From NCBI GenBank assembly GCA_031281155.1, contig JAITFT010000106.1, positions 1 to 36,480 of the forward strand: a DNA stretch of 36,480 bases, in the 5' to 3' direction. The notes below the pieces were generated by a model, which worked only from the letters and a program-made list of their open reading frames with translations, made no database searches and was not told the origin of the DNA. Every line of letters starts with the position of its first letter. Position 1 is the first letter of the stretch. Position numbers and translations under genes: made by a program. This DNA comes from Candidatus Fibrimonadaceae bacterium. GTDB taxonomy: Bacteria > Fibrobacterota > Fibrobacteria > Fibrobacterales > Fibrobacteraceae. Below, piece by piece: positions 2,468-35,879 of this stretch.

Positions 2468-2477
2468 TTTCTATCTT
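2468..2477 (+). promoter_or_regulatory. Start-adjacent promoter motif for the NuoE gene
   Basis: TTTCTATCTT ends 7 nt before the ATG at 2485. It is one of the exact matches to the motif repeated upstream of genes across the window. If it is a -10 element, the transcript would start at or just before the start codon. Confidence 0.5.
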
Positions 2478-2484
2478 CCCCATC

Positions 2485-3354
2485 ATGACGGAATTCACAG
2501 AAGAAACGAAGGCTAGAATAGAAGCTCTGTTAAAGCAATACCCGGTTAAGCAGAGCGCCTTGCTGGAGGTTTTTTGGATTATTCAAAGCGAGTTTGGCTG
2601 GCTCTCCAAAGAAGCCGTTCGCTGGGCAGCGAATGTTTGCGAGTGTTCCCCAGCTCATGCTTGGGGAGTTGCTACTTTTTACACAATGTATAAACACGCT
2701 CCAACAGGGCGTTTCCTTTTGCAATTTTGCCAAAATGTATGCTGCCACATTGCAGGCGCAGAAGATATAATTTCCATAGCTGAAAGAAAACTAGGCATAA
2801 AAGCTGGCGAAACCACTAGCGATAATTTGTTCACCATAGTAAGAGTTGAATGCATTGGAGCCTGCGGTAGCGGTCCTGCAATGCTCGTAAACGATGACTT
2901 TGCAACAGATGTTAAAAACAATTCTCTTGTTATGGAGCAAGGCATTGGATTAAACGAAGAAAGATTAGATAAAATCATAATGTGGTGCAAAGACAGAGCC
3001 GCAAAATTTCCGCAAGAGCCCAAGAGAGATCCTCTAGGCGGCATAACGGGCGCAATTCACGGAGAACCGCACTCTCTTGATTTTGCCCCGCCACCGCCAG
3101 CACTCGGAGTTAAAGCCACAGTAGTTGAAAGCGGAGTTAGCATTATTTGGAAAATCGCTCCAGAAGTAACTGCGCTCACAGTTGAGCGCAAAAACGGCAG
3201 CAAATGGGAAGCAATCGGAAACCCCAGCACCAAAGATAAAGAATTCACCGATACAACCGGCAAAGCTGGCAGCGAATACCGCATAATAACAACCAGCGGC
3301 GAGAACCGCACGCGAGTTAGTTTCTGTTTTTCCGCGGCAGCAAAACCCAAATAA
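2485..3354 (+). CDS. NuoE-type [2Fe-2S] subunit fused to an FN3-like C-terminal domain
   Basis: Residues 1-165 are the thioredoxin-like [2Fe-2S] subunit of complex I or NAD-linked hydrogenases (NuoE/HndA), which passes electrons between NADH and the enzyme in the cytoplasm. All four cluster ligands are visible: C82 and C87 (FCQNVCCH) and C123 and C127 (ECIGACGSGP). Family members are usually about 150-180 residues; this one has 289. After a proline-rich hinge (APPPPALG, about 201-208) the remaining 80 residues (SIIWKIAPEVTALTVERK, then SEYRIITT) look like a fibronectin type III fold. No nuoF follows, as would be usual; instead the 3' end overlaps a convergent transporter gene by 38 bp. The NuoE assignment is firm; the FN3 call is moderate. 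Confidence 0.82.
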   Translation: MTEFTEETKARIEALLKQYPVKQSALLEVFWIIQSEFGWLSKEAVRWAANVCECSPAHAWGVATFYTMYKHAPTGRFLLQFCQNVCCHIAGAEDIISIAERKLGIKAGETTSDNLFTIVRVECIGACGSGPAMLVNDDFATDVKNNSLVMEQGIGLNEERLDKIIMWCKDRAAKFPQEPKRDPLGGITGAIHGEPHSLDFAPPPPALGVKATVVESGVSIIWKIAPEVTALTVERKNGSKWEAIGNPSTKDKEFTDTTGKAGSEYRIITTSGENRTRVSFCFSAAAKPK

Positions 3355-4303
3355 CAACAGGCGCACCCATTAAACTCGCAACGGCGTTGAGCGGCAAAGG
3401 CCGCATTCCCCACAAACCTTGCGATAAAAGCCCTGCTACAAGAGCAAGTAAAGCACCCATTAAAAGCGAAGCAGGGATTAAAATTCTCTGATTATCGCTA
3501 TTGAAAAAACCCCTTGCCAAATGCGGAGTTGCCATTCCTATAAAACCTATAGGTCCGCAAAAAGCCGTTGCTACCGCCGCTAAAACCGCCGCTGCCAAAA
3601 GCGACAGCAGGCGTTTTTGCTTAACATTTATACCCAAGCTTTTCGCTCCTTCATCGCCAAGAGCTATGGCATTTAAATATTTAATGCAGAAAATGGAAAT
3701 AATTAAACCGAGCAAAACGCAAATAACAAAATAAGGCAACTCTTCCCAGCGAAGCCGCCCGAAAGAGCCAAAACCCCAAGATATAAAGCCTCGCAAAGCC
3801 TCTGAATTTGTGCCGTGCATTAAAATTGAAACAACAGCATCGGCAAAATAACCTGCCATTAAACCAAGCACCAAAAGCCCGGCATTGCCTCTAATAAATT
3901 TGGAAAAGAGGGCTATAAAGGCAAGCACCGCCATTGCGCCCAAAGCTGCCGCAGAAAGAAAGCCGAGCGAGCCAACACCTAAACCCGCAAGCAAAAAAAG
4001 CGCAATGCCAAGTGAAGCACCAGAACTAATGCCGAGCACATAGGGCCCCGCAAGCGGGTTCCTGAAAACGCTTTGCAGCAAAAGCCCGCTCAGCGAAAGC
4101 GCGGCACCAGCCAGCGTAGCGGCGAGTGCGCGCGGCAAACGAAAATCCCAAATAATGCGCCACTCTGCCGCCATAGTCTCTGGCGCAGGATTAAGAAGAA
4201 TTTTAACTATCTCAACTGCCGCTATTTCTGCAGAACCACTGAATATGGTTAAGAGAAATGCGGTGAGAAGCAGCGTTGCTAAGATTGAGAAGCGGAGCGA
4301 CAT
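3317..4303 (-). CDS. FecCD/BtuC-family ABC transporter permease
   Basis: A 328-residue polytopic membrane protein. WRIIWDFRLPRALAATLAGA, GLLLQSVFRNPLAGPYVLGI and SSGASLG near residues 45-110 are hallmarks of the FecCD permeases that import iron-siderophore, heme or cobalamin. CGPIGFIGMATPHLAR and RPLPLNAVASLMGAPV near the C-terminus fit the same family. The start ATG lies within the last codons of rplT (25-bp overlap), so it is probably the last gene of the infC-rpmI-rplT transcript. No ATPase or binding-protein partner is in the window, so the substrate cannot be assigned. Its 3' end overlaps the convergent NuoE gene by 38 bp. Confidence 0.87.
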   Translation of the reverse strand: MSLRFSILATLLLTAFLLTIFSGSAEIAAVEIVKILLNPAPETMAAEWRIIWDFRLPRALAATLAGAALSLSGLLLQSVFRNPLAGPYVLGISSGASLGIALFLLAGLGVGSLGFLSAAALGAMAVLAFIALFSKFIRGNAGLLVLGLMAGYFADAVVSILMHGTNSEALRGFISWGFGSFGRLRWEELPYFVICVLLGLIISIFCIKYLNAIALGDEGAKSLGINVKQKRLLSLLAAAVLAAVATAFCGPIGFIGMATPHLARGFFNSDNQRILIPASLLMGALLALVAGLLSQGLWGMRPLPLNAVASLMGAPVVIWVLLPRKNRN

Positions 4304-4647
4304 TTCTTAGCCACTTCCACTACTTTTGCAAATGCTGCTGGATCTGTGATTGCCAAGTCTGCCAGAACTTTGCGGTTCAGGTTTATGTTGGCGACAGAAA
4401 GCAAATGGATAAACTCGCTGTATTTAAGGCCATGCTCACGAACTGCGGCGTTTAGGCGAGTGATCCACAATGAGCGGAAATCACCCTTTCTATCGCGACG
4501 ATGTACGTAAGCATATTCGCCAGCGCGAGTTGTTGCTTCTATGGCTAAACGCAAATTGCTTTTGCGGCGACCATAGTAACCCTTTGCTGCTTTGATTACC
4601 TTTTTGCGGCGAGCGCGGCTCGGAACACTTGTTTTTGCTCTAGACAT
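4279..4647 (-). CDS. rplT: Large ribosomal subunit protein bL20
   Basis: 122 residues, near the usual length for L20, an early 23S rRNA-binding assembly protein. The basic N-terminal helix (RARRKKVIKAAKGYYGRRK) and the folded segment with LWITRLNAAVREHGLKYSEF are diagnostic. It sits 9 nt after rpmI in the conserved infC-rpmI-rplT order. The last residues (KKCRSASQS) overlap the start of the transporter permease gene, so the two are likely translationally coupled. Confidence 0.97.
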   Translation of the reverse strand: MSRAKTSVPSRARRKKVIKAAKGYYGRRKSNLRLAIEATTRAGEYAYVHRRDRKGDFRSLWITRLNAAVREHGLKYSEFIHLLSVANINLNRKVLADLAITDPAAFAKVVEVAKKCRSASQS

Positions 4648-4656
4648 ACAGGCTCC

Positions 4657-4854
4657 TTATGCTAACACCAGCATACGTTTAACGTGGTAAACTTCGGTTT
4701 CTCTCAAAATTCCAGTTTGGCGCAAATTGCGTTTGCGCTTTGTCGTTTTTTTGGTGAGAATGTGGCGCGCCCCGGAATGTTTATATTTAACATCGCCGGA
4801 ACCTGTTACTCGGAAGCGCTTTTTTGCTCCGCTGTGCGTTTTCATTTTAGGCAT
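4657..4854 (-). CDS. rpmI: Large ribosomal subunit protein bL35
   Basis: 65 residues, the normal size for L35, a small basic 50S protein. The N-terminus [20 protein letters not shown] and the central [18 protein letters not shown] are characteristic. It lies 11 nt downstream of infC and 9 nt upstream of rplT in the conserved operon. Confidence 0.97.
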
Positions 4855-4865
4855 TTTGTCCTCTC

Positions 4866-6289: not shown

Positions 6290-8065
6290 CTATTTACCTA
6301 CATCTATTTCAGGAATTTGCAGTTTTTCGCCACTTTTTTGTGCTTTTTGGAGCTTTTTTGCCTTTTCAGGACTGTACCACCAGTAAATCGGGATAGCTTC
6401 TTCACGGTTAAACTTGCCATAAAGCGATTTTGGGTGGCCAAAACGGTTCCAATGCAGTATTTTATTATTGTCAGATTGCCAAAGCAATATATTTGGCACT
6501 ATTTCTGTTAGGCGAGTGTCTAGCTTTCTCAAAATTTCATTGCGGGCATTCAAGTCTTGCTCTGTTTTCTGCAGCTCTATCAAGCTATCCACTATGCTAT
6601 CTTGCAACCCAGACACGTTATTAGTAGCTTTATCGTTTGCAGTCCTGGAGTGCCAGCTCGCCTCAGGGTCGCTTAAACGGCCAGCACCCCAAGCTAGCCA
6701 GCATAGGTCAAAGTCTGCATCGTCTATGCGCTGGCGAAAGGTGGAAAGAGACACCTTCTCTATTTTAGAGCCTATACCCACAGCTCTAAGGTCTTCTTGA
6801 AATTTGGTTGTATGGCGAATATCTTCCATGTAGGTTAAAAAGGTAAGCTCAAATAATTTACCATCTGCGTCTATAAGCTTGCCCTGCGCATTCACCGTGT
6901 AACCAGCCTCCTGTAGAAGCTGCCTTGCAGAATCTGGCGCATAAGGATATAGAGGAGCGTTTGGGTTTTTATGCTGCGGCCACAAGCTTGGGTAGTAGGT
7001 ATTAAGCAGGAAATATTCATTGAACATAAATTTATCATTCATCAATTCTCGGTTTAGCAAAAGAGAAAGTGCTTGGCGAACGCGAAGATCTTTGAATTTA
7101 TCACGGCGCAGATTAAGCGCAAAACCTTGGAAGCCTTTGGGTTCTTCGTTGAATACTCTGTTCTTCAAAACATAGCCTTTTTTTACTGCATCAAAATCGG
7201 TTTGCTTCATCCATATAGATGAAGTGTAAATTGGATATGCATCAAAGTCGCCTTTTTTCAGAGCCTCCAATGCCTTGTTGCGATCTCCCATAAAGCGGTA
7301 AGTTATTTTATCGAAATTATATTTGCCTGCATTATATTTTTTTTCTCTGCCCCACCAGTCCTCTCTGCGAACGAGCTCCAACGAACGATCCATGCGCATT
7401 TGCCTTATGGCATAGGGCCCGCTTACAACAGGGAAATCAAAGCGAATGGAATTGAAATCCACATTTTCCCAAATATGTTTTGGAAACGCAACCATTCCTG
7501 CAGCTGTCCAGAAATTTGCCCAATGCGAATCTTTTGCACTTATTGTAAAATTAAGCGAGTCCGTTACCTCCGGCCTTTCAAGGCGGGAAAGCCCTACTTT
7601 AAAAATAGGCGTTAAATTTTTCGGATCCATAATAACATCGTAATAAAACTGTATATCATAAGCAGTTACTGGCTTTCCATCGCTCCACCTTGCGCGAGAA
7701 TCTATTTCAAAAGAATAGCTCATGCCATCTGGGGCAATTTCCCAATTAGCCGCCAAAATACCAACAGGCCGATTTTCCGTTGAGTGAAGCTCTGCAAGCG
7801 GCTCAAAAAGCATGCTCATAATAGACACGGAAAAAGAATTATAATCTTGCCACATATTCAGAGAAAACGGTGCAGCAGAGCCCCAAAGCGTTATATCTCC
7901 GCAGCGAACAGCTTCGCTCGGAACTGCTATAGGGTCGAATTCGCCGGTAGCATCTTCGTAGCTAGGCGGTGTTTCAGGGCAAACCGCTAAGGGCTTGATG
8001 GACGATTTTTTTTCCACGCAGGAGGAAAAAAAGAGGAGGAAACAAACTAACAGTAATTTACGCAT
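6290..8065 (-). CDS. Peptide-type extracellular solute-binding lipoprotein (SBP_bac_5)
   Basis: Starting at the internal ATG at 8065 gives 591 residues with a lipoprotein signal (MRKLLLVCFLLFFSSC, lipid-attached Cys at 16). The rest matches the oligopeptide/nickel-binding family 5 of ABC transporters: LAANWEIAPDGMSYSFEI, WSDGKPVTAYDIQFYYDVI, and RDKFKDLRVRQALSLLLNRE are standard motifs. It would capture peptides or a similar ligand in the periplasm. A TTTCTACATT motif ends 6 nt before this ATG, the same spacing as at other genes in the window, which argues for an independent start even though the cellulase frame now runs through. No permease or ATPase gene is adjacent. The protein ends in a basic tail. 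Confidence 0.82.
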   Translation of the reverse strand: MRKLLLVCFLLFFSSCVEKKSSIKPLAVCPETPPSYEDATGEFDPIAVPSEAVRCGDITLWGSAAPFSLNMWQDYNSFSVSIMSMLFEPLAELHSTENRPVGILAANWEIAPDGMSYSFEIDSRARWSDGKPVTAYDIQFYYDVIMDPKNLTPIFKVGLSRLERPEVTDSLNFTISAKDSHWANFWTAAGMVAFPKHIWENVDFNSIRFDFPVVSGPYAIRQMRMDRSLELVRREDWWGREKKYNAGKYNFDKITYRFMGDRNKALEALKKGDFDAYPIYTSSIWMKQTDFDAVKKGYVLKNRVFNEEPKGFQGFALNLRRDKFKDLRVRQALSLLLNRELMNDKFMFNEYFLLNTYYPSLWPQHKNPNAPLYPYAPDSARQLLQEAGYTVNAQGKLIDADGKLFELTFLTYMEDIRHTTKFQEDLRAVGIGSKIEKVSLSTFRQRIDDADFDLCWLAWGAGRLSDPEASWHSRTANDKATNNVSGLQDSIVDSLIELQKTEQDLNARNEILRKLDTRLTEIVPNILLWQSDNNKILHWNRFGHPKSLYGKFNREEAIPIYWWYSPEKAKKLQKAQKSGEKLQIPEIDVGK

Positions 8066-10570
8066 GGCTGAAATGTAGAAAAATACTTGTTTCCTAACTG
8101 TTATAACCTGGCTTCCATCTGATGGGCGAATTTGATAAACGCCGCTGGATACATGGCGAGCGTTCCAGATAAATTGATTACGGCTGTTTCTGTAAAGGGT
8201 TGCGATATGCCTGCCCTGAACATTGAGAACCGTTAAGCTTTCCGCTTTGCAGAATTGAGAAGGAGTGAAGAAAAACAAATCGTTTACCCTGTTTACAAAT
8301 AATGAAACAGGACCGCGCGACACTACTTTTGGAGGCAAAATAGCGGTTGGAATATACGGAGGTTGCTCATTATAGCTATAAGCTATTACGCTTTCGATTC
8401 TTATAGCTATTTCTTGCCCAGGCACTTGATTTACAAACTCAATTTCTCGAACCTTGGAGACATCTAATTCTCTGCTGGGAGAAAAAGCAGGGCTAACTGC
8501 GCTGAATTCTATCCAATATTCACCTTGCCCTTTACCTAAAATTTGTTTGCCATGGTAAGCATAGTTGGTAATATCATCTTGCACCAAGTTAAACCGAACC
8601 ACCATACCTTCTGGCAAATCCATAACCAAGCGAATCCCATGCGCTTCATCTAAAAGGAATGTATTTGGGAAAGTGCCTTTCAAACCGCTGTAAGCATAAC
8701 CTAAGGTACTATTGGCACGGGTGTCGAGTGTAGCAAGGACATTAGTACCGAAACTAATTGGGGTAGTGACTTCGGAATTGCCTCCCTCGCTTTTATCATC
8801 GTAGGTTATCCAGCTGAGATCGCTTGCTTGCAGGGGAATTTCTTTATCGGGTTGATAAAGCGAAGTAGGAACCGTTCCGGAATCCGGCGCAGGGCTGAGG
8901 TTTTTCGCTGAAGCCAGCGCAAGCATCAAAATAAAATCGCCTTGACCGCCTATGGTGCTTTCTTGAATCATAAAATCATTGGCATTATCGTAGAATACGC
9001 CGGCAGAGGTATTGAATTCTTCAAAAGGGCTATTTGCAGGAACAGTAAAATATTGGCTCATTTCGTTGTGAGTTTTTCTATCGCCCGGTCCCTCAGATAA
9101 AGCGCCAACTGGAAAAGCCTCAGTTAAACGGTAAATACCGTTGTAAATATTGCGAATGCTATAAGGCAAATCGGCGGAAGCAATCATGGCTATGCCCCAG
9201 TTATTGCGGCCAAAAGCATAATCCAAAACGCCAAGGAAAGGAGCGGTTAATTCTTCGGTCCCTTGCAAACGCCGCGCTCGCAAATGAGCATTTGCCGCGC
9301 CTATCCAGCGATGCAAACTGCCCCATATATATTCACCCGGAAGATTCCAAACGTTATCTCGTTCATAGCGCCCAATCTCAGTTAGCAAACGAGCCATTGC
9401 AGCTTCGTCTCCCGACTGTGCCAAACGATGGTTAGCAAACGCATTCCAGCTACCCCAGCTCACCTCATACCCTGCAGGCGGTGCGTAATGTTCCAGGTAA
9501 CTTTGCTCTTGAGTTAAGTGGTAAAGTTCTGCTGCTGCAAGAGCCATGTTGTCTGTGTCGGTTTGGTCGAAGTAGAAATCGTTGGTTTGGTCACGTTCAA
9601 ATGCGGAGCGTTGAGTATCGCTTTGCCTTGCTCGGGCATAAATTGCTTTTGCTTTTTCTTCGTAAAGAGCGGCAGCATTTGCATCTAAAGTTTTGAACAC
9701 CTGCGCTCCCAAAGCCAAAGCGGCGGCGGTGCTTCCCATGTGTACGCGGGACAAAGCGCACAGGGCAGGTCTTTTGCCTTCGAGCGCATCCATATTTGGC
9801 ATACGCCACCCTTGTTTGTGGTCATTGCCGTCTCCCACCTGTATTACAAAAGTATTTTCATCTGGGAATGTTTTTAGCAAGTAATCAAGGCTATACTTTG
9901 CTTCGTCCAAAATATCTGGCAAATCGGAGTAACTTTGAACTTTAACAAAGAGAGAGGGGTTTTCCTGATAAGCCGTTAATAAATGCCAAGCGAGATATGC
10001 TTCGTTTAATGTAAATTTGATATAATCGCCTGCATCGTAATGACCGCCTTGCATATCCACCGTTCTGCGGGGCGCAGCTTCTTCCCAAGCCCCCTGCTCC
10101 CAATCGCCTTTGACGATGTGCACAATGGCCGCACTATCTCCCAAATGCGAGGGCTTGCGCAGGCGGGCTTGCCCGCCGCTACGCATAGCGCGCAGGTGCA
10201 TTAGGGCTTGCGTTGCAAACAGTGAATAAGGATCTTCACGAATAAGCACTTGCTGTGTTTGTGCACCAGCCAATTCCAATGCATAAATTCCTATTTCTTT
10301 TAAGGAGCTGAAATCGATGGTATAGGTATATGCTTGGGCAACATAAAAATCATCGCCAGGCTTGCCAGCGGCAAGCTGACCGCTCAAAACCTCTGTGCCG
10401 CCGTTTTTCAGGCTCCAGCTTTCCCCTGCAATATCAGTATTGGAAAGAACCACCGCCGTTTTAGCACGTTCAGGAACATAACCCGCTTGATTTACCCGAA
10501 CCCAAACGCCAGCTTGGGAAAAGATAGATAAACCCATAATCACCACCGTAAATAGTTGAAGTACTCTCAT
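6290..10570 (-). CDS. GH9 cellulase with CBM-like module and sorting tail, open in frame into the downstream solute-binding lipoprotein
   Basis: The uninterrupted frame is 1426 codons, but only the first 827 (10570-8090) are cellulase. They contain a signal peptide (residues 1-20), an N-terminal Ig-like domain (22-105), a GH9 catalytic domain from about 110 to 555 with GGHYDAGDY at 176-183 (catalytic Asp region) and IQESTIGGQGD near the end, a CBM11/CIA30-like beta-sandwich from about 575 to 735, and a Por/T9SS-type tail (WNARHVSSGVYQI, VITVRK) near 800-826. The next codon is CAA (8089-8087), one base from TAA; after it the frame crosses 7 codons into the lipoprotein start at 8065. I infer that the cellulase should end there and that the stop was lost by mutation or sequencing error. 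It hydrolyses beta-1,4-glucan outside the cell. A GAGG sits about 9 nt before the start. Confidence 0.8.
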   Translation of the reverse strand: MRVLQLFTVVIMGLSIFSQAGVWVRVNQAGYVPERAKTAVVLSNTDIAGESWSLKNGGTEVLSGQLAAGKPGDDFYVAQAYTYTIDFSSLKEIGIYALELAGAQTQQVLIREDPYSLFATQALMHLRAMRSGGQARLRKPSHLGDSAAIVHIVKGDWEQGAWEEAAPRRTVDMQGGHYDAGDYIKFTLNEAYLAWHLLTAYQENPSLFVKVQSYSDLPDILDEAKYSLDYLLKTFPDENTFVIQVGDGNDHKQGWRMPNMDALEGKRPALCALSRVHMGSTAAALALGAQVFKTLDANAAALYEEKAKAIYARARQSDTQRSAFERDQTNDFYFDQTDTDNMALAAAELYHLTQEQSYLEHYAPPAGYEVSWGSWNAFANHRLAQSGDEAAMARLLTEIGRYERDNVWNLPGEYIWGSLHRWIGAANAHLRARRLQGTEELTAPFLGVLDYAFGRNNWGIAMIASADLPYSIRNIYNGIYRLTEAFPVGALSEGPGDRKTHNEMSQYFTVPANSPFEEFNTSAGVFYDNANDFMIQESTIGGQGDFILMLALASAKNLSPAPDSGTVPTSLYQPDKEIPLQASDLSWITYDDKSEGGNSEVTTPISFGTNVLATLDTRANSTLGYAYSGLKGTFPNTFLLDEAHGIRLVMDLPEGMVVRFNLVQDDITNYAYHGKQILGKGQGEYWIEFSAVSPAFSPSRELDVSKVREIEFVNQVPGQEIAIRIESVIAYSYNEQPPYIPTAILPPKVVSRGPVSLFVNRVNDLFFFTPSQFCKAESLTVLNVQGRHIATLYRNSRNQFIWNARHVSSGVYQIRPSDGSQVITVRKQVFFYISAMRKLLLVCFLLFFSSCVEKKSSIKPLAVCPETPPSYEDATGEFDPIAVPSEAVRCGDITLWGSAAPFSLNMWQDYNSFSVSIMSMLFEPLAELHSTENRPVGILAANWEIAPDGMSYSFEIDSRARWSDGKPVTAYDIQFYYDVIMDPKNLTPIFKVGLSRLERPEVTDSLNFTISAKDSHWANFWTAAGMVAFPKHIWENVDFNSIRFDFPVVSGPYAIRQMRMDRSLELVRREDWWGREKKYNAGKYNFDKITYRFMGDRNKALEALKKGDFDAYPIYTSSIWMKQTDFDAVKKGYVLKNRVFNEEPKGFQGFALNLRRDKFKDLRVRQALSLLLNRELMNDKFMFNEYFLLNTYYPSLWPQHKNPNAPLYPYAPDSARQLLQEAGYTVNAQGKLIDADGKLFELTFLTYMEDIRHTTKFQEDLRAVGIGSKIEKVSLSTFRQRIDDADFDLCWLAWGAGRLSDPEASWHSRTANDKATNNVSGLQDSIVDSLIELQKTEQDLNARNEILRKLDTRLTEIVPNILLWQSDNNKILHWNRFGHPKSLYGKFNREEAIPIYWWYSPEKAKKLQKAQKSGEKLQIPEIDVGK
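8072..8081 (-). promoter_or_regulatory. Start-adjacent promoter motif inside the fused frame
   Basis: TTTCTACATT on the minus strand ends 6 nt before the ATG at 8065. It lies between the presumed lost cellulase stop and the lipoprotein start. Confidence 0.5.
8087..8089 (-). other. CAA codon at the expected cellulase stop
   Basis: The cellulase tail reads ...VITVRK and then CAA. Tails of this type usually end within a residue or two of this point. A single C-to-T change would give TAA. The sequence after it is the presumed intergenic promoter rather than protein. Confidence 0.5.
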
Positions 10571-10590: not shown

Positions 10591-10600
10591 AAGGTAGAAA
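10591..10600 (-). promoter_or_regulatory. Promoter motif for the minus-strand GH9 gene
   Basis: TTTCTACCTT ends 20 nt before the ATG at 10570, leaving room for a leader with GAGG. It lies in the 95-bp divergent region between the two cellulase genes. Confidence 0.45.
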
Positions 10601-10648
10601 ATTTTAGCATAGAACGTCTGAAGGTGGCTTTTGCCAATGCCAACCAGT

Positions 10649-10658
10649 TTTCTATATT
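10649..10658 (+). promoter_or_regulatory. Promoter motif for the plus-strand GH9 gene
   Basis: TTTCTATATT ends 7 nt before the ATG at 10666. A TTGCCA at 10631-10636 lies 16 bp upstream of the TATATT core and could be a -35 element. The two cellulase promoters are back to back, about 50 bp apart, so a shared regulator is possible. Confidence 0.5.
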
Positions 10659-10665
10659 AAAGAGC

Positions 10666-12843
10666 ATGAAAGCATTCCTTCTTCTTCCGTTGCTCGCTAC
10701 TCTCTGTTTTTCCCAAAACTTGAGCGATTCTATAGTGATAGACCAGTTTGGCTATCGTGAACAAGCAAAGAAAACTGCGGTTATTAGAGCTCCGCAACTA
10801 GGCCACGACGCACCCAGTTCCTACGCTCCCGGAACAGAGTTTCAAATTATAAACGAAACTTCCGGCACAGCGGTTTTTGATGGAGCGCCAGTGGCTTTCA
10901 ACTCAGGGCAAACAGATGCTGCCTCTGGAGATAGAATTTGGTACTTTGACTTTTCAAGCGTAACGCAGCCCGGGCGCTACTACGTTTTGGATAAAACAAA
11001 TAATCTTCGCTCCTTTACTTTTTTCATAGCAAACGATGTGTATAACAATGCACTTAAAGCCGCTGTTAAAATGCTCTATTATCAACGTGCCGGCACCGAT
11101 AAGCCAGCAGAATATGCCGGCGAAACCTGGAAAGATGGCTTTAACTTTTCGCAAGATGCACAAAGCAGAGATTTTTTTGACAGAAATAATGCCTCAAAAG
11201 AAAGGGATTTGAGCGGTGGCTGGTTTGATGCCGGCGATTACAACAAATACACAAAATGGACTGCCGACTATGTTGAAAATTTGCTGCTTGCCTTTGAAGA
11301 AAATCCGGCAGCTTTCGCAGATGACTATGGCATTCCAGAATCTGGCAATGGAGTTCCCGATATTTTAGATGAAGTAAAATGGGGAATAGCATGGCTTTTG
11401 AAAATGCAAAATGAAGATGGCTCTGTGTTAAGCGTTCAAGGTTTAAGCCACGCTTCACCCCCATCTTCCGTTACAGGGCCAAGTTACTATGGCCCGGCAA
11501 ATACAACTGCCACCCTAGGAACAGCCAAAGCCTTTGCCACAGCCGCTCGTATTTTTGGCGCGCTCGGCGAAGTTGATTATTCAGAACAATTGAGAACCGC
11601 CGCTTTCAAAGCATGGGACTGGGCAGAGGCTTATCCCGATTCAATTTTCCACAATAACTGCGGAGATACTTGGAATAAAAATTTATGCCCAAATTATGAT
11701 TCCAGAGGTTTAGCGGCAGGCGATCAAGAACTCACAGATTCTTGGGATAGAGTTGAGAACCGCATAAGCGCAGCGCTTTCTTTGTATGAAATAACCGGCG
11801 AAGAATCTTTTTTAGAAATTTTTGAAAATAACTGGACTGCGTTTCCACTGCGAGCTTGGGGTGCTTATATGCAGCAGTATAGATTTCAGCAACACATGCT
11901 CCTTATTAGGTATTTGAAAAGTTCTTATGGCAAAACTAATATTAAAAACGCTATCAGAAGCGAATTTATAACAGCTTTTGCAAAGCCAAACAGCAATGCT
12001 AATCACTTTGGCAATGGATACCAAAGCGATGGCTACCGTTCTTATATATACGATTACCAGTGGGGCTCAAACAAAATTAAGGCAGATCACGGTTTAACCT
12101 ATTACAAATGGAATATTGTTGATCCAACTAAAGACTATAAAGATGTTGCAGAAGATTATATGCATTATATTCATGGTGTAAATCCATTTAATATGGTTTA
12201 TTTAACCAACATGGAAAGTTACGGAATTTCAAAAAGTTTAAACGCTATGTATCACGAGTGGTTTGGAGAAGGCAACACAATCCCTCCAATACCGGGATAC
12301 TTGGCTGGCGGCCCAAATAAAGGCTATGGACTGGACGGCTGCTGCCCATCTTCTTGCGGTTCTGTAGCTAACAATGCAAGATGCAATTTGGTAGATGTTC
12401 CGAACAAAGATACCGAACCGCCCGCAAAAATGTACGTGGATATAAACTATAGCTGGCCTGTCAATTCCTGGGAAATTACGGAGCCTCACAATGCCTATCA
12501 GATATCTTATATTAGATTGCTATCCAAATTTGCAGAAAAGAAAGGCCCAATATCAGTAGTGCCACCGTATGAGCCTAAACCTAGACCTGATCCTGTACCC
12601 ATAAAACAGCAAAATAATATTCAGAATTTTAAAATAGTACAAAACAGAAATTCTCTGCAAATTTTTGGCGAGTCTTTGCAAGTTTCCGTCTATAATCCAA
12701 GCGGAAAATTGCTACTCAGGGAACAAAGCAGCAACGGCGCTATTAACGTAAATTTGCAAAAATTTCCAAATGGCGTTTATATTGTGCGAATTTCAAACGG
12801 CTCCACAAAAGATATCGTGTTTCTACGGGCTCTAAACTTCTAA
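10666..12843 (+). CDS. GH9 cellulase with sorting-like tail
   Basis: 725 residues from the ATG at 10666, which begins a clean signal peptide (MKAFLLLPLLATLCFS) and sits 7 nt after the promoter motif; the frame also opens at a TTG at 10624 that I reject. An N-terminal Ig-like domain (SDSIVIDQFGYREQAKKTAV onward, about 18-120) precedes the GH9 (alpha/alpha)6 barrel, about 125-640. GGWFDAGDYNKY holds the catalytic Asp, and NSWEITEPHNAYQISY near 615 holds the conserved Asn-Glu-type acid region. A proline linker (PPYEPKPRPDPVP) leads to a Por/T9SS-type tail (SVYNPSGKLL, NGVYIVRISNG). It is a secreted endo- or processive beta-1,4-glucanase, divergent from the other GH9 gene. Its last 12 bp overlap the convergent kinase gene. 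Confidence 0.92.
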   Translation: MKAFLLLPLLATLCFSQNLSDSIVIDQFGYREQAKKTAVIRAPQLGHDAPSSYAPGTEFQIINETSGTAVFDGAPVAFNSGQTDAASGDRIWYFDFSSVTQPGRYYVLDKTNNLRSFTFFIANDVYNNALKAAVKMLYYQRAGTDKPAEYAGETWKDGFNFSQDAQSRDFFDRNNASKERDLSGGWFDAGDYNKYTKWTADYVENLLLAFEENPAAFADDYGIPESGNGVPDILDEVKWGIAWLLKMQNEDGSVLSVQGLSHASPPSSVTGPSYYGPANTTATLGTAKAFATAARIFGALGEVDYSEQLRTAAFKAWDWAEAYPDSIFHNNCGDTWNKNLCPNYDSRGLAAGDQELTDSWDRVENRISAALSLYEITGEESFLEIFENNWTAFPLRAWGAYMQQYRFQQHMLLIRYLKSSYGKTNIKNAIRSEFITAFAKPNSNANHFGNGYQSDGYRSYIYDYQWGSNKIKADHGLTYYKWNIVDPTKDYKDVAEDYMHYIHGVNPFNMVYLTNMESYGISKSLNAMYHEWFGEGNTIPPIPGYLAGGPNKGYGLDGCCPSSCGSVANNARCNLVDVPNKDTEPPAKMYVDINYSWPVNSWEITEPHNAYQISYIRLLSKFAEKKGPISVVPPYEPKPRPDPVPIKQQNNIQNFKIVQNRNSLQIFGESLQVSVYNPSGKLLLREQSSNGAINVNLQKFPNGVYIVRISNGSTKDIVFLRALNF

Positions 12844-15732: not shown

Positions 15733-15738
15733 AATATA
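15733..15738 (-). promoter_or_regulatory. TATATT core upstream of the LysM gene
   Basis: On the minus strand an A-run then TGTATATTT puts TATATT 6 nt before the ATG at 15726. It overlaps the short gap after glgP. Confidence 0.45.
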
Positions 15739-18360: not shown

Positions 18361-18370
18361 AATGTAGAAA
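18361..18370 (-). promoter_or_regulatory. Promoter motif for glgP
   Basis: TTTCTACATT ends 29 nt before the glgP ATG. This is one of the longer-leader cases, and here a Shine-Dalgarno (AGGAG) is present. Confidence 0.45.
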
Positions 18371-19324: not shown

Positions 19325-19334
19325 AAGATAGAAA
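19325..19334 (-). promoter_or_regulatory. Start-adjacent promoter motif for the SPOR lipoprotein
   Basis: TTTCTATCTT ends 8 nt before the ATG at 19316. Confidence 0.5.
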
Positions 19335-19552: not shown

Positions 19553-19562
19553 TTTCTATATT
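19553..19562 (+). promoter_or_regulatory. Promoter motif upstream of the Rpn gene
   Basis: TTTCTATATT lies 57 nt before the ATG at 19620, further than usual, and just past the truncated end of the membrane-protein remnant on the other strand. Confidence 0.35.
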
Positions 19563-21880: not shown

Positions 21881-21890
21881 AAGATAGAAA
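21881..21890 (-). promoter_or_regulatory. Promoter motif upstream of the FISUMP leader
   Basis: TTTCTATCTT begins one base after the PAS gene stop and ends 8 nt before the ATG at 21872, 255 nt before the FISUMP ATG. Confidence 0.45.
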
Positions 21891-23739: not shown

Positions 23740-23745
23740 AATATA
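23740..23745 (-). promoter_or_regulatory. TATATT core for the TIGR02147 operon
   Basis: On the minus strand TGTATATTAT puts TATATT 8 nt before the ATG at 23731. Confidence 0.45.
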
Positions 23746-25197: not shown

Positions 25198-25207
25198 AAT
25201 GTAGAAA
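25198..25207 (-). promoter_or_regulatory. Start-adjacent promoter motif for the beta-helix gene
   Basis: TTTCTACATT ends 6 nt before the ATG at 25191, immediately after the stop codon of the preceding small gene. Confidence 0.5.
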
Positions 25208-27172: not shown

Positions 27173-27182
27173 AATGTAGAAA
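27173..27182 (-). promoter_or_regulatory. Start-adjacent promoter motif for hisS
   Basis: TTTCTACATT ends 8 nt before the ATG at 27164, in the 36-bp gap after rbfA. Confidence 0.5.
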
Positions 27183-27200: not shown

Positions 27201-27551
27201 TTACAACTCCCCTTTCTCCTTTAAGCCATGCAATATTTCGTCTATACGGGCGGCGTGCTGCTGGTTTTCGTCTATTGCAAAACGGAGTTCTGGGATTTTG
27301 CGGATTTTTATGATTTTTGAAAGATGAGTGCGTATAAAGCCTGAGGATTTTTGCAAAGCGTTCAGGCTTTTCATTTGCTCCTGCTTTGAACCCATAACGG
27401 AAACTCGCACAGTCGCATAAGATAAGTCTGCGCTTACATCTACTCTAGATATGGAAGCAAGCCCCACATTCGGGTTGTTAAGCCCGTTGCGCAAAAGACT
27501 TGCAATCTCGCGCTGCATAAGAACGCCTAATCTATCGGTTCTGAGACTCAT
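27201..27551 (-). CDS. rbfA: Ribosome-binding factor A
   Basis: 116 residues, the family size. RbfA helps mature the 30S subunit and the 5' end of 16S rRNA, important in cold. RLGVLMQREIASLLRNGLNN, ISRVDVSADLSYATVRVSVM and FIRTHLSKIIKIRKIPELRF are its KH-like signature. It starts in a 4-bp ATGA overlap with the infB stop, in the common nusA-infB-rbfA order. Confidence 0.96.
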   Translation of the reverse strand: MSLRTDRLGVLMQREIASLLRNGLNNPNVGLASISRVDVSADLSYATVRVSVMGSKQEQMKSLNALQKSSGFIRTHLSKIIKIRKIPELRFAIDENQQHAARIDEILHGLKEKGEL

Positions 27552-30319
27552 TTGCTCTCCTTTGCCACATCAGCAAGAGTGCGGGCAACGTTAACTTGTT
27601 TAAAGAATATAAGAGAATCGCCTTCTTGAATATTTTCGTAGCCACGAAGACCAATACCGCATTCATGGCCTGACCTAACAGAAGAAACATCGTCTTTGTT
27701 TCGCTTTAGAGACTGAACTCTTGTTACGCCAAGCTCAACGCCTTCGCGATAAACACGCACTTGAGATTCTCTATCGACGTCACCGGCTTTAACCATGCAG
27801 CCAGCAATCAAGCCGATTTTCGGAATTCTGAATACTTGACGAATTTCAGCTTCGCCAGTGACTTCTTCTTTATTCACCGGTTTTAGCAAGCCTTCAATTG
27901 CGCCTTTGATTTCTTCTATAACATCGTAAATTACGCGATAGGTTTTGATTTCAACGCCTTCTTGTTCAGCAAGCTCTCTTATTGAATGAGATGGCATTAA
28001 ATGGAATGCAATTATAATGGCATTGGAGATAGAAGCCAAATGCACGTCGTCGTCGTTTATGGCGCCTACGCCCTTGCGAACAATTTTAATTTTAACTTCG
28101 TTGTTTGAAAGAGCAGCCAAGGATTCCGCCAAAACTTCGCAAGAACCTGCCACATCGGTTTTTATAAGCAAGTTCAATTCGGATATTTTACCGGTTTTTG
28201 CTTCGTCGTAAACTTGCTCTAGCGACATACGAGCACGGAAGCGCAAAGCTCTTTCATGAGCAGCTTGCTGCCTCTTTGAGGAAATTTCAGATGCTGCCTG
28301 ATCGCTTTCTACAACCACTAAATCGTCGCCTGCTTGCGGTGTTCCTGTGAAACCTAAAACCTGGCACGGAGTGCTTGGGCCAACCTCTTTGAGTGCTTCG
28401 CCTCTTTCGTTGAGCAAAGCACGAACTCTGCCGGAATAATTTCCGCAAACAAAGCAATCGCGAACTTTCAATGTTCCGTTTTGAATTAAAATTGTGGCTA
28501 TGGTTCCTTTGCCCGCATCTAAACGGCTTTCCACAACAACGCCTCTCGCATTGGTATCTGGATTTGCCTTTAGTTCCAGAACTTCGGATTCCAAAGCCAA
28601 AGTTTCCAGCAATTTGTCTATGCCTTCGCCTGTTTTAACAGATACTCTAACACAGCTGATATTACCGCCCCATTCTGCTACCTGCACTCCCCTTTCAGAG
28701 AGTTGAGCCATGATTTTATCGGTGTTTGCTGTTGGCAAGTCAACTTTTGTTATGGCTATAACTAGTGAAACTTTTGCATTTTTGGCAAGTTCAATACATT
28801 CGACCGTTTGCGGCATAACCATTGAGTCTGCAGCAACCACCAAAACTATTACATCGGTAACCTGGCTGCCTCTGGCGCGCATAGCGGTAAATGCTTCGTG
28901 ACCTGGGGTATCCAAAAATGTGATTTTCCCGTTTGGGGTATCGACTTCGTAGGCACCTATATGTTGAGTTATGCCGCCAGATTCACCGCGCACAACATTG
29001 GCTTTGCGAATGTAATCGAGCAGAGAGGTTTTACCGTGATCTACGTGCCCCATAACGGTTACAACCGGATGCCTTGGCTTTAGGTTTTCTGCGTCGTCGC
29101 TTTGAATACCGAGAGTTTCTTCTTGATATTCTTCCATAAGCTGGGCTTCAAAGCCAAATTCATCGGCTATAATTTGCACAACTTCAAAATCGAGCTGGTT
29201 ATTTATGGTAACCATTTTGCCCATTTCCATGCACTTGCCAATAACGCGCGCTGGCGGCTGTTCTAAAAGCCCTGCCAATTCACCAACGGAAACAAGAGCG
29301 GAAACATTGATGACTTTTGATGGTGCTTCGCCTTCAACACGAGCTTTGTCTTTATTGTAAACTTTTTTAACCGGGGTTTTGGATAGAGATACCAAAACGC
29401 TCTCAACTCTCTTTTGAGCTTTTTCAACGTCTTCTTTTTTAGCCTCTCTTTCTCTTTGGGAATCTCTGCCCTTTTTATTCTTGCCTTTGCTATGAAAATC
29501 GCTATGCTGCTGCCCGCTGCGCGTTCTGTTATCCAGAAAATCCTTGTGCGCTGGCGTGCTCGCAGACAAAACGTCTTGAAGGGTTGTGCCAAAACCAGGC
29601 CGCCTGCTTTGTGCGCCACCTGCTTGCGCTTTGTTTTCTGTTTGCCTTGGTTGAGCGCGCAAATTTCCGCTGTACCCAGTTGCTGAAGGCTTGCCTTTGT
29701 TCCCTTGCTTTCCGCCACGCGGCTGATTGCTGCGCATTGCCTTTTCTTGCTGGCTTTTTTGAATACGCGCTAAAACTGCAGGATCAACTACTCTAGATAC
29801 ATTTGCCGTAAATGCCGCAGGTTTTTTGGGAACTTCTATAGAACGCCTTATTTCAGGCTGCGAAGCAAGCTGTGGTTTTTCACTTTTTCTTTCCGTTGCA
29901 AGCGGTTTTAAGATTTCTTTAACTGGCTCTTGTTTTTCAACAGCTTTAGTATTTAAGCTCGCGGTTGGCTTTTCAACCGGCGTAAGCTGCGACTCAACTG
30001 CTTTTTCTACGGGCTTTTTTGGAGCTACAGCTTTTGCTGGCGGCTTGTCTATTTTTTTCAGCTTAATATTGCTGCTGGCCGCACTTTTTTGCTCATCGCT
30101 TTCTACCTTGGCTTTCTTTTGGCCTTTATTGGGCGGCTTCCTTTTTTGAGCAGCGCGGATATCGTTTATATAGGAGTTTAAAGCCGCTTCAGAAACTTTT
30201 GAATTCGCCGACCTCACAACCGTGCCATCCAAGGTTCTTCCGGCCAAAAAGTTAATGGAATCCCTTAGATCAAAGGAATGTTTTTCTATCCAGGCTTTGA
30301 CTGAAATTAATTCACTCAT
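27548..30319 (-). CDS. infB: Translation initiation factor IF-2
   Basis: 923 residues from the ATG at 30319 ([17 protein letters not shown]); the frame is open further upstream but only inside nusA. IF-2 is the GTPase that brings initiator tRNA to the ribosome. A short N-terminal helix domain is followed by a long charged linker rich in K, A, P and Q (about 60-330). The G domain shows HPVVTVMGHVDHGKTS (G1, near 417-432), DTPGHEAF (G3) and ITKVD (G4), then the beta-barrel and C-terminal domains. Its start overlaps the nusA stop by 8 bp. Confidence 0.97.
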   Translation of the reverse strand: MSELISVKAWIEKHSFDLRDSINFLAGRTLDGTVVRSANSKVSEAALNSYINDIRAAQKRKPPNKGQKKAKVESDEQKSAASSNIKLKKIDKPPAKAVAPKKPVEKAVESQLTPVEKPTASLNTKAVEKQEPVKEILKPLATERKSEKPQLASQPEIRRSIEVPKKPAAFTANVSRVVDPAVLARIQKSQQEKAMRSNQPRGGKQGNKGKPSATGYSGNLRAQPRQTENKAQAGGAQSRRPGFGTTLQDVLSASTPAHKDFLDNRTRSGQQHSDFHSKGKNKKGRDSQREREAKKEDVEKAQKRVESVLVSLSKTPVKKVYNKDKARVEGEAPSKVINVSALVSVGELAGLLEQPPARVIGKCMEMGKMVTINNQLDFEVVQIIADEFGFEAQLMEEYQEETLGIQSDDAENLKPRHPVVTVMGHVDHGKTSLLDYIRKANVVRGESGGITQHIGAYEVDTPNGKITFLDTPGHEAFTAMRARGSQVTDVIVLVVAADSMVMPQTVECIELAKNAKVSLVIAITKVDLPTANTDKIMAQLSERGVQVAEWGGNISCVRVSVKTGEGIDKLLETLALESEVLELKANPDTNARGVVVESRLDAGKGTIATILIQNGTLKVRDCFVCGNYSGRVRALLNERGEALKEVGPSTPCQVLGFTGTPQAGDDLVVVESDQAASEISSKRQQAAHERALRFRARMSLEQVYDEAKTGKISELNLLIKTDVAGSCEVLAESLAALSNNEVKIKIVRKGVGAINDDDVHLASISNAIIIAFHLMPSHSIRELAEQEGVEIKTYRVIYDVIEEIKGAIEGLLKPVNKEEVTGEAEIRQVFRIPKIGLIAGCMVKAGDVDRESQVRVYREGVELGVTRVQSLKRNKDDVSSVRSGHECGIGLRGYENIQEGDSLIFFKQVNVARTLADVAKESK

Positions 30320-31631
30320 TAGAGTTTGCTGCCTCGCTTGAAGAAGGTTCTTCTGTGGTATTTTCCATAGTATCTTCTGTGATGTCTGTGATGTCTGTGG
30401 TATCTTCAGCAATATCTTCGCTCTTGTTGAAAAGCGTATCTAAAGATGCCGCTCTTTTGCTTACTATGCGAGGATCTTGCGAATGCATTAAATTTTCTCT
30501 TTCTTCTTCGGAAAGACTCGACCAGTCAGTTTCGCTAAATACGCAAATTTCTTTTGAAAACAGCTGACCTGCCAAGCGAACCGCCTGCCCTTTATCCCCT
30601 ATAACAACGCCAACATCTTCGTCTCCAACTATAACGATGGTGCGAGGAGGGCTGAAATCGGGAACTTCGAAAGATTTTATTATGTTTACATTGCTGGTTG
30701 CGCTGAGTGCTCTGCGCAGGTATAAATCGGGATCGGGATCCCAGTGCACAACGTCTATGCGTTCGTTGTTGAGTTCTCTTGTTATGGCTTGTATGCGTTG
30801 CCCTTTAACGCCTATGCAGGCACCAGATGGATCTACCCGATCGTCTCTGGAATAAACCGCAACCTTGGCTCGGTAGCCTGGAATACGAGCTATGCCCTTA
30901 ATTTCTATTGTGCCATCGTAAACTTCGGGAATTTCCTGCCGGAATAATTCACGAACGAAATCCTTATTTACCCTTGAAAGAGTTACTTGCGCACCGACTC
31001 CCTTTGAAGGCTCGGAAATGCCGGATATAACGGCTTTTACAGACTGCCCTATTTTCCAGCGATCTTTGCTCATGCGCTCGCTGTTTGTAAGGATAGCTTC
31101 GGTGCTGCCTATGGAGATTATAGCGTTGTTTTTTTCAATTCTTAAAACTTGCCCGTTTATAAGGGTGCCTATTTTATTCTTGTAATTTTCAAATATGCGA
31201 TTTCTTTCTACTTCGTTTATACGATGCTTTAAACGGTTGCGAGCTTCTTGTATGGCATAGCGGCCAAATTTTTCAAAGGGCAGGGTAACTTCGAGCATAT
31301 AACCCGCCTCTGCTCCAGCATGATATTCTTTAGCTTCGTCTTCAAGCATGTAGTTTTCGTCCATTTTACGGACATCTTCAGCGGTCATGTTTGGATCGTA
31401 ATCGGGAAAATCTTCCACTACCTCAACACGCAGCACAACCTGAATATCCTCGGTAACAGGATCGACATCAACCTCTATGTTTTTATGCAGCTTCATGCAC
31501 TGACGCGCTGCAACTACGAGAGATTCTTTAAAGGCACCAAATACCTCTTCTATGGCAACATTTTTTTCCTTTGCCAAGAGTTCCAAAGCTTCTTTTACTT
31601 CGTTGGTTTTTTTTGCTGTTTTTTTTGCCAT
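30312..31631 (-). CDS. nusA: Transcription elongation/termination factor NusA
   Basis: 439 residues. NusA binds RNA polymerase and nascent RNA to modulate pausing, termination and antitermination. The N-terminal domain ([20 protein letters not shown] to about 165) is followed by the S1 domain ([20 protein letters not shown]) and two KH domains ([38 protein letters not shown]). The C-terminal 40 residues are acidic with a T-D-I/E-D-T repeat, coming from short tandem DNA repeats near 30370-30410. The start lies inside the end of rimP (37-bp overlap). Confidence 0.96.
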
Positions 31632-32919: not shown

Positions 32920-32929
32920 AATATAGAAA
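32920..32929 (-). promoter_or_regulatory. Promoter motif for mdh and probably the nusA operon
   Basis: TTTCTATATT ends 31 nt before the mdh ATG; this leader carries a Shine-Dalgarno-like GAGG about 5 nt before the start. Confidence 0.5.
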
Positions 32930-33470: not shown

Positions 33471-33480
33471 TTTCTATATT
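33471..33480 (+). promoter_or_regulatory. Start-adjacent promoter motif for the MazEF-type pair
   Basis: TTTCTATATT ends 6 nt before the ATG at 33487. Confidence 0.5.
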
Positions 33481-33486
33481 GTTGGT

Positions 33487-33720
33487 ATGGAAACTTCATT
33501 GTTTATCGAAACCGAAATTTCAAAAGACGTTGAGCAAATTGCGAGGCGTCGAGAGGTTCCCGTGGAAACCATTTATATTATCGCAATAAAAGAGTTTGTT
33601 AAAAATCATAAAAATGATAATATCCTAAATTCCTTAAATAGAGTTTATTCAGAAACTAATTCCGAGTTAGATAAAGATATTGGACTTGCTCAAAGTTCAA
33701 TTTTAAGCGAGGAGTGGTAA
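33487..33720 (+). CDS. Antitoxin of a MazEF-like pair
   Basis: 77 residues with a ribbon-helix-helix-like N-terminal half (SLFIETEISKDVEQIARRRE, then VETIYIIAIKEFVKN) and an acidic C-terminal half ending ILSEEW. The half-and-half layout, DNA-binding then toxin-binding, is usual for type II antitoxins. The stop codon directly abuts the toxin start, so translation is likely coupled. Family name beyond antitoxin is uncertain; position before a MazF toxin is the main support. Confidence 0.72.
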   Translation: METSLFIETEISKDVEQIARRREVPVETIYIIAIKEFVKNHKNDNILNSLNRVYSETNSELDKDIGLAQSSILSEEW

Positions 33721-34065
33721 TTGATAAAAGGCGAAATTTGGTGGGCAGATCTACCTGTCCCTAGAGGCTCTGAACCAGCTAAGAGACGGCCTGTTTTAAT
33801 AGTTCAAAACGATATTTTTAATAGGAGTAAAATTAGTACTGTTATATGCGCAGTGATAACATCAAATTTACATTTGGCAAATGCTCCATTCAATATTCTA
33901 TTGGAAAAAGGCGTTTCAAAACTTGAAAAATCTTCCGTAATAAATGTTTCTCAAATTATAACTTTGGATAAAGTATATCTGACCAATTTTGTTTCTATGC
34001 TTCCAAAATATGTTATTTCTCAAGTAGATTACAGTTTGAAACAAATTTTTGATATTTCTATTTAG
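33721..34065 (+). CDS. MazF/PemK-family mRNA interferase toxin
   Basis: 114 residues with the MazF fold signature: IKGEIWWADLPVPRGSEPAK, RRPVLIVQNDIFN, STVICAVITSN and the C-terminal SVINVSQIITLDKVYL. MazF toxins cut mRNA at short sequences in a ribosome-independent way. The gene starts with TTG immediately after the antitoxin stop, an arrangement that would lower toxin yield relative to antitoxin. Forms a type II toxin-antitoxin operon with the preceding gene. Confidence 0.88.
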   Translation: MIKGEIWWADLPVPRGSEPAKRRPVLIVQNDIFNRSKISTVICAVITSNLHLANAPFNILLEKGVSKLEKSSVINVSQIITLDKVYLTNFVSMLPKYVISQVDYSLKQIFDISI

Positions 34066-34084
34066 TTTTTAACGCAGCGAAAGT

Positions 34085-34094
34085 TTCTATATTA
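34085..34094 (+). promoter_or_regulatory. Start-adjacent promoter motif for the PIN remnant
   Basis: TTTCTATATT lies about 7 nt before the start codon of the PIN-type fragment, showing that the 5' end of the original gene is intact. Confidence 0.45.
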
Positions 34095-34367: not shown

Positions 34368-34784
34368 TTATTCCCCAATAATCTTCACAAGCACGTGCTT
34401 TTCTCGCTTTCCATCAAATTCGCCGTAGAAAATTTGTTCCCAGGTTCCAAAATCCAGTTTTCCGTTTGTAATTGCAACAACAACTTCACGGCCCATTACG
34501 GAACGCTTTAAATGCGCATCTGCGTTGTCTTCGTAACCATTGTGCTCGTATTGCTCGTGGGGCTTTTCCGGAGCAAGCTTTTCCAGCCAACGCTCAAAGT
34601 CTTGATGCAATCCGCTTTCATTGTCGTTTATAAACACGCTTGCAGTGATGTTCATAGCATTCACAAGGCACAAGCCTTCGCGAATGCCGCTTTCGTTAAT
34701 GGCAGTTTGTACCTGTGAGGTGATATTGACATAAGCACGGCGGGTTTTGGTATGAAAGGCGAGCTTTTTGCGAAATGATTTCAT
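34368..34784 (-). CDS. YjbQ/UPF0047-family protein
   Basis: 138 residues, the family length. [40 protein letters not shown], and the C-terminal [31 protein letters not shown] are conserved blocks. E. coli YjbQ has been linked to a weak thiamine phosphate synthase activity; the physiological role is not settled. The start ATG lies 6 nt after a TATATT core. A truncated paralogue lies 900 bp away at 35688-35858. Confidence 0.88.
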
Positions 34785-35290: not shown

Positions 35291-35615
35291 ACAGCACCTT
35301 TCCGGTATCTACAACTTCTTTTACAAAAAAATCGTTCTCTTTTAAAAGATACTCATACTCTGCTTTTGAGTATGTTATCACATCCAAGGCTACTTTGCGA
35401 TTCGTCTCCAATACAAAAGGATATATCATATTCCATCTATCCATTCTTTCATCAAAAGTTTTCGCAAATTCATTTGAATCTAATACTACCATCACATCTA
35501 AATCACTGTCTTTTGTTACGGGACCTTTGGCATAAGACCCAAACAAAATAACTTTATACGGCTTTAATTCTTTAAGCCTTTCGGTCATTTCGTCTATTAG
35601 GTGCTGGTTCTGCAT
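35274..35615 (-). CDS. Minimal nucleotidyltransferase (MNT) of a HEPN-MNT pair
   Basis: 113 residues. VILFGSYAKGPVTKDSDLDV (about 23-42) is the GSxAxG...DxD nucleotidyltransferase active site, followed by a second acidic strand (KVALDVITY). In studied systems the MNT partner modifies and neutralises the HEPN toxin by adding nucleotides. A TTTCTATATT motif ends 7 nt before the ATG at 35615. The HEPN gene overlaps its 3' end. Confidence 0.88.
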   Translation of the reverse strand: MQNQHLIDEMTERLKELKPYKVILFGSYAKGPVTKDSDLDVMVVLDSNEFAKTFDERMDRWNMIYPFVLETNRKVALDVITYSKAEYEYLLKENDFFVKEVVDTGKVLYERKN

Positions 35616-35622
35616 AAAGGAT

Positions 35623-35632
35623 AATATAGAAA
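35623..35632 (-). promoter_or_regulatory. Start-adjacent promoter motif for the MNT-HEPN operon
   Basis: TTTCTATATT ends 7 nt before the ATG at 35615. Confidence 0.5.
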
Positions 35633-35687
35633 ATCACAAGCTAGTCCAGACATCCCACAGAGCCAGTTTGTGAGAAAGGAATCACCT

Positions 35688-35858
35688 TCACAAAAAACTT
35701 CCTTTCCCTTGGCGGGTCAAACTCGCAAAAATAGTGTGCGGGCAATAAACAACAGCGATTCCGTCTTTTACGCCGCTTTCAGCGATGGCCTCGCGGATTT
35801 TTGGCGTGATGTCGTAAAAGTCTAGGCGTGGAGTGGAAATGCGGTATTCAAGAAGCAT
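35688..35858 (-). pseudogene. Truncated YjbQ/UPF0047 paralogue
   Basis: 56 codons on the minus strand starting at an ATG 11 nt after a TTTCTACCTT motif. The sequence YRISTPRLDFYDITPKIREA, then ESGVKDGIAVVYCPHT, is the N-terminal third of YjbQ, ending where the family would continue TAxxTINE. It instead reads IFASLTRQGKGSFL and stops at 35688-35690. The rest of the gene is not found downstream; the MNT-HEPN promoter follows about 55 bp later. It is a different paralogue from the intact one at 34368-34784, cut by a deletion or insertion. Confidence 0.7.
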
Positions 35859-35869
35859 AGCTGGCAGGG

Positions 35870-35879
35870 AAGGTAGAAA
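35870..35879 (-). promoter_or_regulatory. Promoter motif for the truncated YjbQ
   Basis: TTTCTACCTT ends 11 nt before the ATG at 35858. Confidence 0.4.

Follow-up and report, generated by a model that had tools for sequence, protein, structure and literature searches.

The window, a 36,480-nt stretch of a Candidatus Fibrimonadaceae genome, carries the sequence TTTCTAYMTT in front of many of its genes, often only 6-8 nt before an ATG. The question that this raises is whether the motif is a promoter element, in which case transcription would begin at or next to the start codon and the messages would be leaderless, or whether it serves translation or a special set of genes.

A motif at start codons in the window and throughout the genome

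The window contains 16 exact matches to TTTCTAYMTT, compared with 0.45 in dinucleotide shuffles (n = 100; sd 0.69, maximum 2), in keeping with the original prediction that fewer than about one would arise by chance. The 15 sites listed in that prediction are all real, except that the one placed at 34085 begins at 34084, and one further match in the window (30100, +) had been overlooked. Its count of ten copies ending 6-8 nt before an ATG is exact (2468, 10649, 33471, and 34084 on the plus strand; 8072, 19325, 21881, 25198, 27173, and 35623 on the minus strand), and the other listed copies either belong to leadered genes (10591, 18361, 19553, and 32920) or have a gap of 11 nt (35870). It also holds that the longer-leader copies at mdh, glgP, and the first GH9 gene are followed by a Shine-Dalgarno (SD) sequence, and that a looser box, ATGTATATT, lies at a similar spacing of 6-8 nt before an ATG at 6252, 15733, and 23740. 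The putative -10 boxes are as follows, where the gap is the number of nucleotides between box and ATG.

2468..2477 (+): start-adjacent -10, gap 7 to ATG 2485; nuoE-like 2Fe-2S protein, 2485-3354, Pfam PF01257
6252..6257 (-): variant -10 (ATGTATATT), gap 7 to ATG 6244
8072..8081 (-): start-adjacent -10, gap 6 to internal ATG 8065; solute-binding lipoprotein
10591..10600 (-): -10 of a leadered GH9 gene, gap 20 to ATG 10570; SD GAGG
10649..10658 (+): start-adjacent -10, gap 7 to ATG 10666; GH9 cellulase, 10666-12843
15733..15738 (-): variant -10 (ATGTATATT), gap 6 to ATG 15726
18361..18370 (-): -10 of a leadered gene named glgP in the original prediction, gap 29 to ATG 18331; SD GGAG
19325..19334 (-): start-adjacent -10, gap 8 to ATG 19316; SPOR-domain protein
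19553..19562 (+): -10 of a leadered gene, gap 57 to ATG 19620
21881..21890 (-): start-adjacent -10, gap 8 to ATG 21872; 86-aa ORF
23740..23745 (-): variant -10 (ATGTATATT), gap 8 to ATG 23731
25198..25207 (-): start-adjacent -10, gap 6 to ATG 25191; beta-helix protein
27173..27182 (-): start-adjacent -10, gap 8 to ATG 27164; hisS
30100..30109 (+): motif match antisense within ORF 27548-30412 (-), no ATG within 60 nt; probably not a coding-gene promoter
32920..32929 (-): -10 of leadered mdh, gap 31 to ATG 32888; SD AGAGG
33471..33480 (+): start-adjacent -10, gap 6 to ATG 33487; 77-aa ORF
34084..34093 (+): start-adjacent -10, gap 8 to ATG 34102; 67-aa ORF
35623..35632 (-): start-adjacent -10, gap 7 to ATG 35615; nucleotidyltransferase
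35870..35879 (-): -10, gap 11 to ATG 35858; 56-aa ORF

Two of the small ORFs have recognizable surroundings. The 77-aa ORF is antitoxin-like and is directly followed by a MazF-like ORF at 33721 (TTG start; named by eye), the two lying within 33471-34065 (+), and the 56-aa ORF (35688-35858, -) resembles the start of a second copy of the YjbQ-like gene at 34368-34784 (-; also named by eye).

In the genome as a whole (2.57 Mb, 219 contigs), scanned with the reversed pattern as the control, TTTCTAYMTT occurs 735 times versus 87 times for the control. An ATG lies 6-8 nt downstream of the motif in 346 cases versus five in the control, and 13-15 nt downstream in 35 cases, some of which have another ATG nearer the box. 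The genome-wide scan that had been proposed thus reveals a sharp peak at starts and not the lack of enrichment that would have spoken against the idea. An A-tract followed by ATGTATATT was considered as a separate promoter class and proved to be a minor variant only (13 in the genome versus two in the control).

Spacing, reading frame, and Shine-Dalgarno sequences

The distance from box to start codon was analyzed in a 300-kb sample of the genome, the first contigs of which were chosen from the list of contigs with motif matches. The first ATG after the motif was found at 6, 7, or 8 nt at 47 of 107 sites (15, 21, and 11, respectively) and almost never at 13-19 nt, and from 20 nt onward the sites form another, broad group. 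Sites of the near peak share the frame of long ORFs: among those matching at least nine of the ten motif positions, 43 were in frame at gaps of 6-8 nt versus one out of frame. An SD core precedes one of the 67 start-adjacent genes versus 89 of the 187 other genes. The genes of the far group mostly have GAGG or GGAG at the usual distance before the ATG, and in leadered genes these cores, when located at 5-8 nt, are in frame 20-26 times per spacing versus 1-3.5 times out of frame. Start-adjacent genes begin with ATG (64) or GTG (3), TTG not being permitted in that test, and the SD genes with ATG (74), GTG (5), or TTG (10). Of the genes of 100 aa or more, 26% are start-adjacent, as are 26 of the 56 genes with a divergent neighbor (46%); these fractions are approximate because the gene caller is a simple longest-ORF routine. 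The bias from the choice of contigs is small, since a TTTC-type TAnnTT lies near the start in 14-16 of 81 genes when contigs are chosen solely by number.

Three further observations concern the surroundings of the box. The spacer between the -10 box and the ATG is C-rich (ACCC/CCCC) at the start-adjacent sites of G000 and of G136 (Fibrobacterales bacterium MS499-38), a genome of a sister genus, and the same C-rich signature is seen downstream of leadered promoters. A second peak of TAnnTT at gaps of 13-18 nt was rejected as a distinct signal, as it is largely the TA of TA(A/T)TTTTCTAYMTT and so represents the same promoters. A 16S rRNA gene, sought in order to read the anti-SD sequence, was not found in any of the 12 congeneric genomes.

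Promoter identity

RNase P RNA is never translated, and its gene (rnpB) was found in 10 of the 12 congeneric genomes and across most of the phylum. Each of the ten has a TTTCTAYMTT-like box whose end lies 5-9 nt (mode 6-7) before the Rfam 5' end of rnpB, and the other genera of the family differ only slightly from this arrangement. In genus g2, which includes Fibrobacter, a TTG precedes the hexamer by exactly 17 nt, the classical -35 distance, in 11 of 18 rnpB promoters. When the sites of the window's genus and of G136 are pooled, TTG likewise peaks at 17 nt (15 sites versus 3.9 expected, P = 1.5e-5). It should be noted that this peak is small and that most sites in the window's lineage have no -35 information; TTTTC upstream is common to most promoters, and we infer that this conserved element probably substitutes for the -35. 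Based on the distance to rnpB and the TTG at 17 nt, TAYMTT is assigned as the -10 box with start sites 6-8 nt downstream. Judged by sequence, therefore, the motif is the -10 box of a promoter and not a translation signal. The original prediction that TAnnTT would be a -10 box and the start-adjacent genes leaderless is supported by the peak at starts, the position before rnpB, the reading frame, the absence of an SD, and the nearly empty interval at 13-19 nt that sets these genes apart from the SD-bearing group.

How close to the AUG the messages would begin deserves consideration. Gaps of 9-12 nt are found at 16 of the 67 start-adjacent genes and would leave leaders of 2-5 nt, and hence some messages would be near-leaderless; at hisS of Fibrobacter the gap is 10 nt and the leader would therefore be a few nucleotides. 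Taken further, most transcripts might start 2-6 nt upstream of the AUG, with the very short leader being what matters. We regard this as unlikely, since the mode of the gap at start-adjacent genes, 6-7 nt, is that found before the 5' end of rnpB.

A second alternative is that the motif is bound by a transcription factor or an alternative sigma factor and serves a special regulon rather than being a general promoter. The motif is unusually strict, and besides three short RpoD-like paralogues the window's genome encodes one more sigma factor, as such a reading would have it. However, the box exists in 735 copies, the TTG lies at the standard spacing of 17 nt, and the genes served are as varied as rnpB, hisS, mdh, the nuoE-like gene, a cellulase, a nucleotidyltransferase, and toxin-antitoxin-like ORFs, which together make a special regulon very improbable. 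In a third reading the motif would be a translation element acting inside a true leader, as in Bacteroidota, either as an enhancer or as a ribosome-binding sequence of the non-SD type, and the promoter would lie further upstream. This would fit the motif's closeness to start codons and the frequent lack of an SD in FCB relatives (PMC3155529, PMC9581028), but has next to no chance of being correct: the same box stands at the same distance before an RNA that is never translated, it is also found 20-57 nt ahead of SD-bearing genes, again with the C-rich signature downstream, and the TTG at 17 nt marks a sigma-70-type -10.

Proposed mechanism

We propose that this lineage uses TTTTC-TAYMTT as its housekeeping core promoter, consisting of the -10 box TAYMTT and a T-rich upstream extension that ends in C, and that most copies would work without a -35 box. 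RNA polymerase would initiate 6-8 nt downstream of the box, and in about a quarter of genes (46% of those with a divergent neighbor) the start codon would sit at that very point, so that the message would start at the AUG or no more than 1-2 nt from it. The ribosome would then initiate on the 5'-terminal AUG, as in leaderless mRNAs elsewhere, while the remaining transcription units would have leaders with an SD. The identity of the promoter, its spacing and in-frame position, the absence of an SD, and the distribution across genomes can all be read from the sequences themselves, and to these we add, by inference, where exactly the RNAs begin, that the leaderless messages are translated, and the sigma factor reading the box. 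In about a quarter of genes, the message almost certainly begins at the start codon and would be translated without an SD, and we assign a probability of about 0.92 to this promoter, and the leaderless mRNAs it would give at start-adjacent genes, being the correct explanation.

Distribution in the family and sigma factors

The matches of hisS group the window's lineage with Candidatus Fibrimonas (such as G134, Ca. Fibrimonas termitidis GUT221) and other termite-gut Fibrobacteres, uncultured relatives of the fiber-digesting Fibrobacter. Of the 61 genomes of the family, 60 yielded hisS (25893-27164 in the window); 30 of these loci were fetched, and in most of them a TAnnTT box precedes the start by 6-10 nt. 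This box spans genera g1, g11, g10, g7, g5, and g2 with freely varying flanks, and three loci of g1 (L099, L102, and L104) have no good box at the expected place. In comparison, nuoE (loci L126-L155) was a poor choice of gene, as its frame extends further upstream in most relatives. In G000, G075, and G129, nuoE has its own start with an adjoining -10-like box, possibly a recent gain of a start-adjacent promoter.

The share of start-adjacent genes was estimated from samples of 60-233 genes, with ATG starts only and a relaxed TAnnTT at gaps of 6-9 nt, after subtraction of out-of-frame counts. It is about 22% (G000) and 27% (two congeners) in the window's lineage, about 23% in G136 of the sister genus, about 11% (G001, g2) and 15% (G033, g5) in other genera of the family, about 10% in another family of the class (G025), and about 3% outside the class (G008). 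An on/off reading of the genus counts was rejected, as with the relaxed TAnnTT the Fibrobacter-like genera also have about 11-15%, and the window's lineage is therefore about two-fold higher, not unique. The two-fold variation within the family, which is greater still across the phylum, provides a natural series for the spread of leaderless expression.

Matches to the RpoD model TIGR02393 do not exceed 194 bits in any of the 15 genomes of class Fibrobacteria, and their open frames are no longer than 317 aa; in most genomes of other families the match is at least about 300 bits with a frame of 512-566 aa. A long RpoD is also missing from three genomes outside the class (G002, G003, and G005), and the class, like a few genomes outside it, has several short RpoD-like paralogues (L079-L095) instead. 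L021, the best sigma candidate encoded by the window's genome, can be aligned with primary sigma factors whose structures are solved and has WWIRQAIQK where these have WWIRQAITR. Loss of ribosomal protein bS21 was rejected as a correlate, as bS21 is present nearly throughout the phylum, this genome included. We tentatively suggest, at a little short of even odds, that in class Fibrobacteria, which has no long RpoD, a short divergent sigma factor reads TTTTC-TAYMTT as a -35-independent extended -10, and that in the Fibrimonas lineage the compactness of this promoter allowed start codons to move into the transcription start, roughly doubling the number of leaderless genes within the family. If true, the shift of one lineage from SD-led toward leaderless expression could be traced here.

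Relation to known systems

The promoter of Bacteroidota has the form TTG-N(19-21)-TAnnTTTG. It shares with the promoter described here the TAnnTT core, and both groups have short RpoD-like sigma factors; indeed, several Fibrobacter rnpB promoters read TAnnTTTG. It differs in that the TTG here peaks at 17 nt or is absent, rather than 19-21 nt from TAnnTTTG, the upstream TTTTC is added, and most copies have no -35. The closest parallel is found in the start-adjacent -10 boxes and leaderless mRNAs of Deinococcus-Thermus (PMC12340547, which cites de Groot et al. 2014). There, roughly 30% of genes have a -10 box about 6-7 nt ahead of the start and no SD. In both cases SD-led genes coexist and the motif explains wrongly annotated starts. 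The two belong to different phyla, the Deinococcus-Thermus consensus is TANNNT (often TACACT) where the present one is TTTTC-TAYMTT followed by a C-rich spacer, and it is class Fibrobacteria that has no long RpoD.

Zheng et al. (2011) take genes with a TA-type signal some 12 bp ahead of the start to be leaderless (PMC3160421). The genes described here resemble their TA-led genes in having such a signal near the start, with the box at the corresponding position, a predicted promoter start site 6-8 nt downstream of it, and no SD. The groups found positive by Zheng et al. include no Fibrobacteres and, in Bacteroidetes/Chlorobi, one of 37 genomes, at 2.4% (PMC3160421). GeneMarkS-2 predicts leaderless transcription in 21.6% of bacterial species, with up to 40% of transcripts, and assigns to the FCB group AT-rich non-canonical ribosome-binding sites rather than leaderless starts (PMC9581028). 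The present lineage is like the leaderless species in the kind of expression and the similar fraction of genes. It does not show FCB-type non-SD translation, in which leadered mRNAs are generally without an SD, since its leadered genes carry GAGG or GGAG. The less obvious yet detectable SD reported for Fibrobacteres (PMC3155529) agrees with the mixture of leaderless and SD-led genes. In the open-licence literature we found no paper on leaderless genes or promoters of Fibrobacter, although earlier reports elsewhere are possible, and a phylogenomic paper on the phylum mentions neither sigma factors nor promoters. Leaderless expression is of a known kind, and the lineage and the form of the promoter seem undescribed in the open-licence papers searched. 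The analysis adds a lineage with about a quarter of its genes predicted to be leaderless to the FCB group, in which leaderless starts were thought rare.

Gene starts and a fused ORF

With a promoter consensus this strict, misplaced gene starts can be corrected and fused ORFs separated in uncultured genomes rich in cellulases. The 1426-aa ORF at 6290-10570 (-) fuses a GH9-type cellulase and a solute-binding lipoprotein with no stop between them. The lipoprotein (SBP_bac_5) has its own signal peptide and its own start-adjacent promoter at 8072-8081, and the ORF is probably two genes, the first of which is missing its stop. At 10624-10666, 15726-15741, and 22895-23770, the longest ORF begins either within the promoter box or ahead of it; specifically, the GTG start called at 10624 for the GH9 cellulase (+) is upstream of the promoter at 10649..10658. 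By the motif, the true starts are likely 10666, 15726, and 23731.
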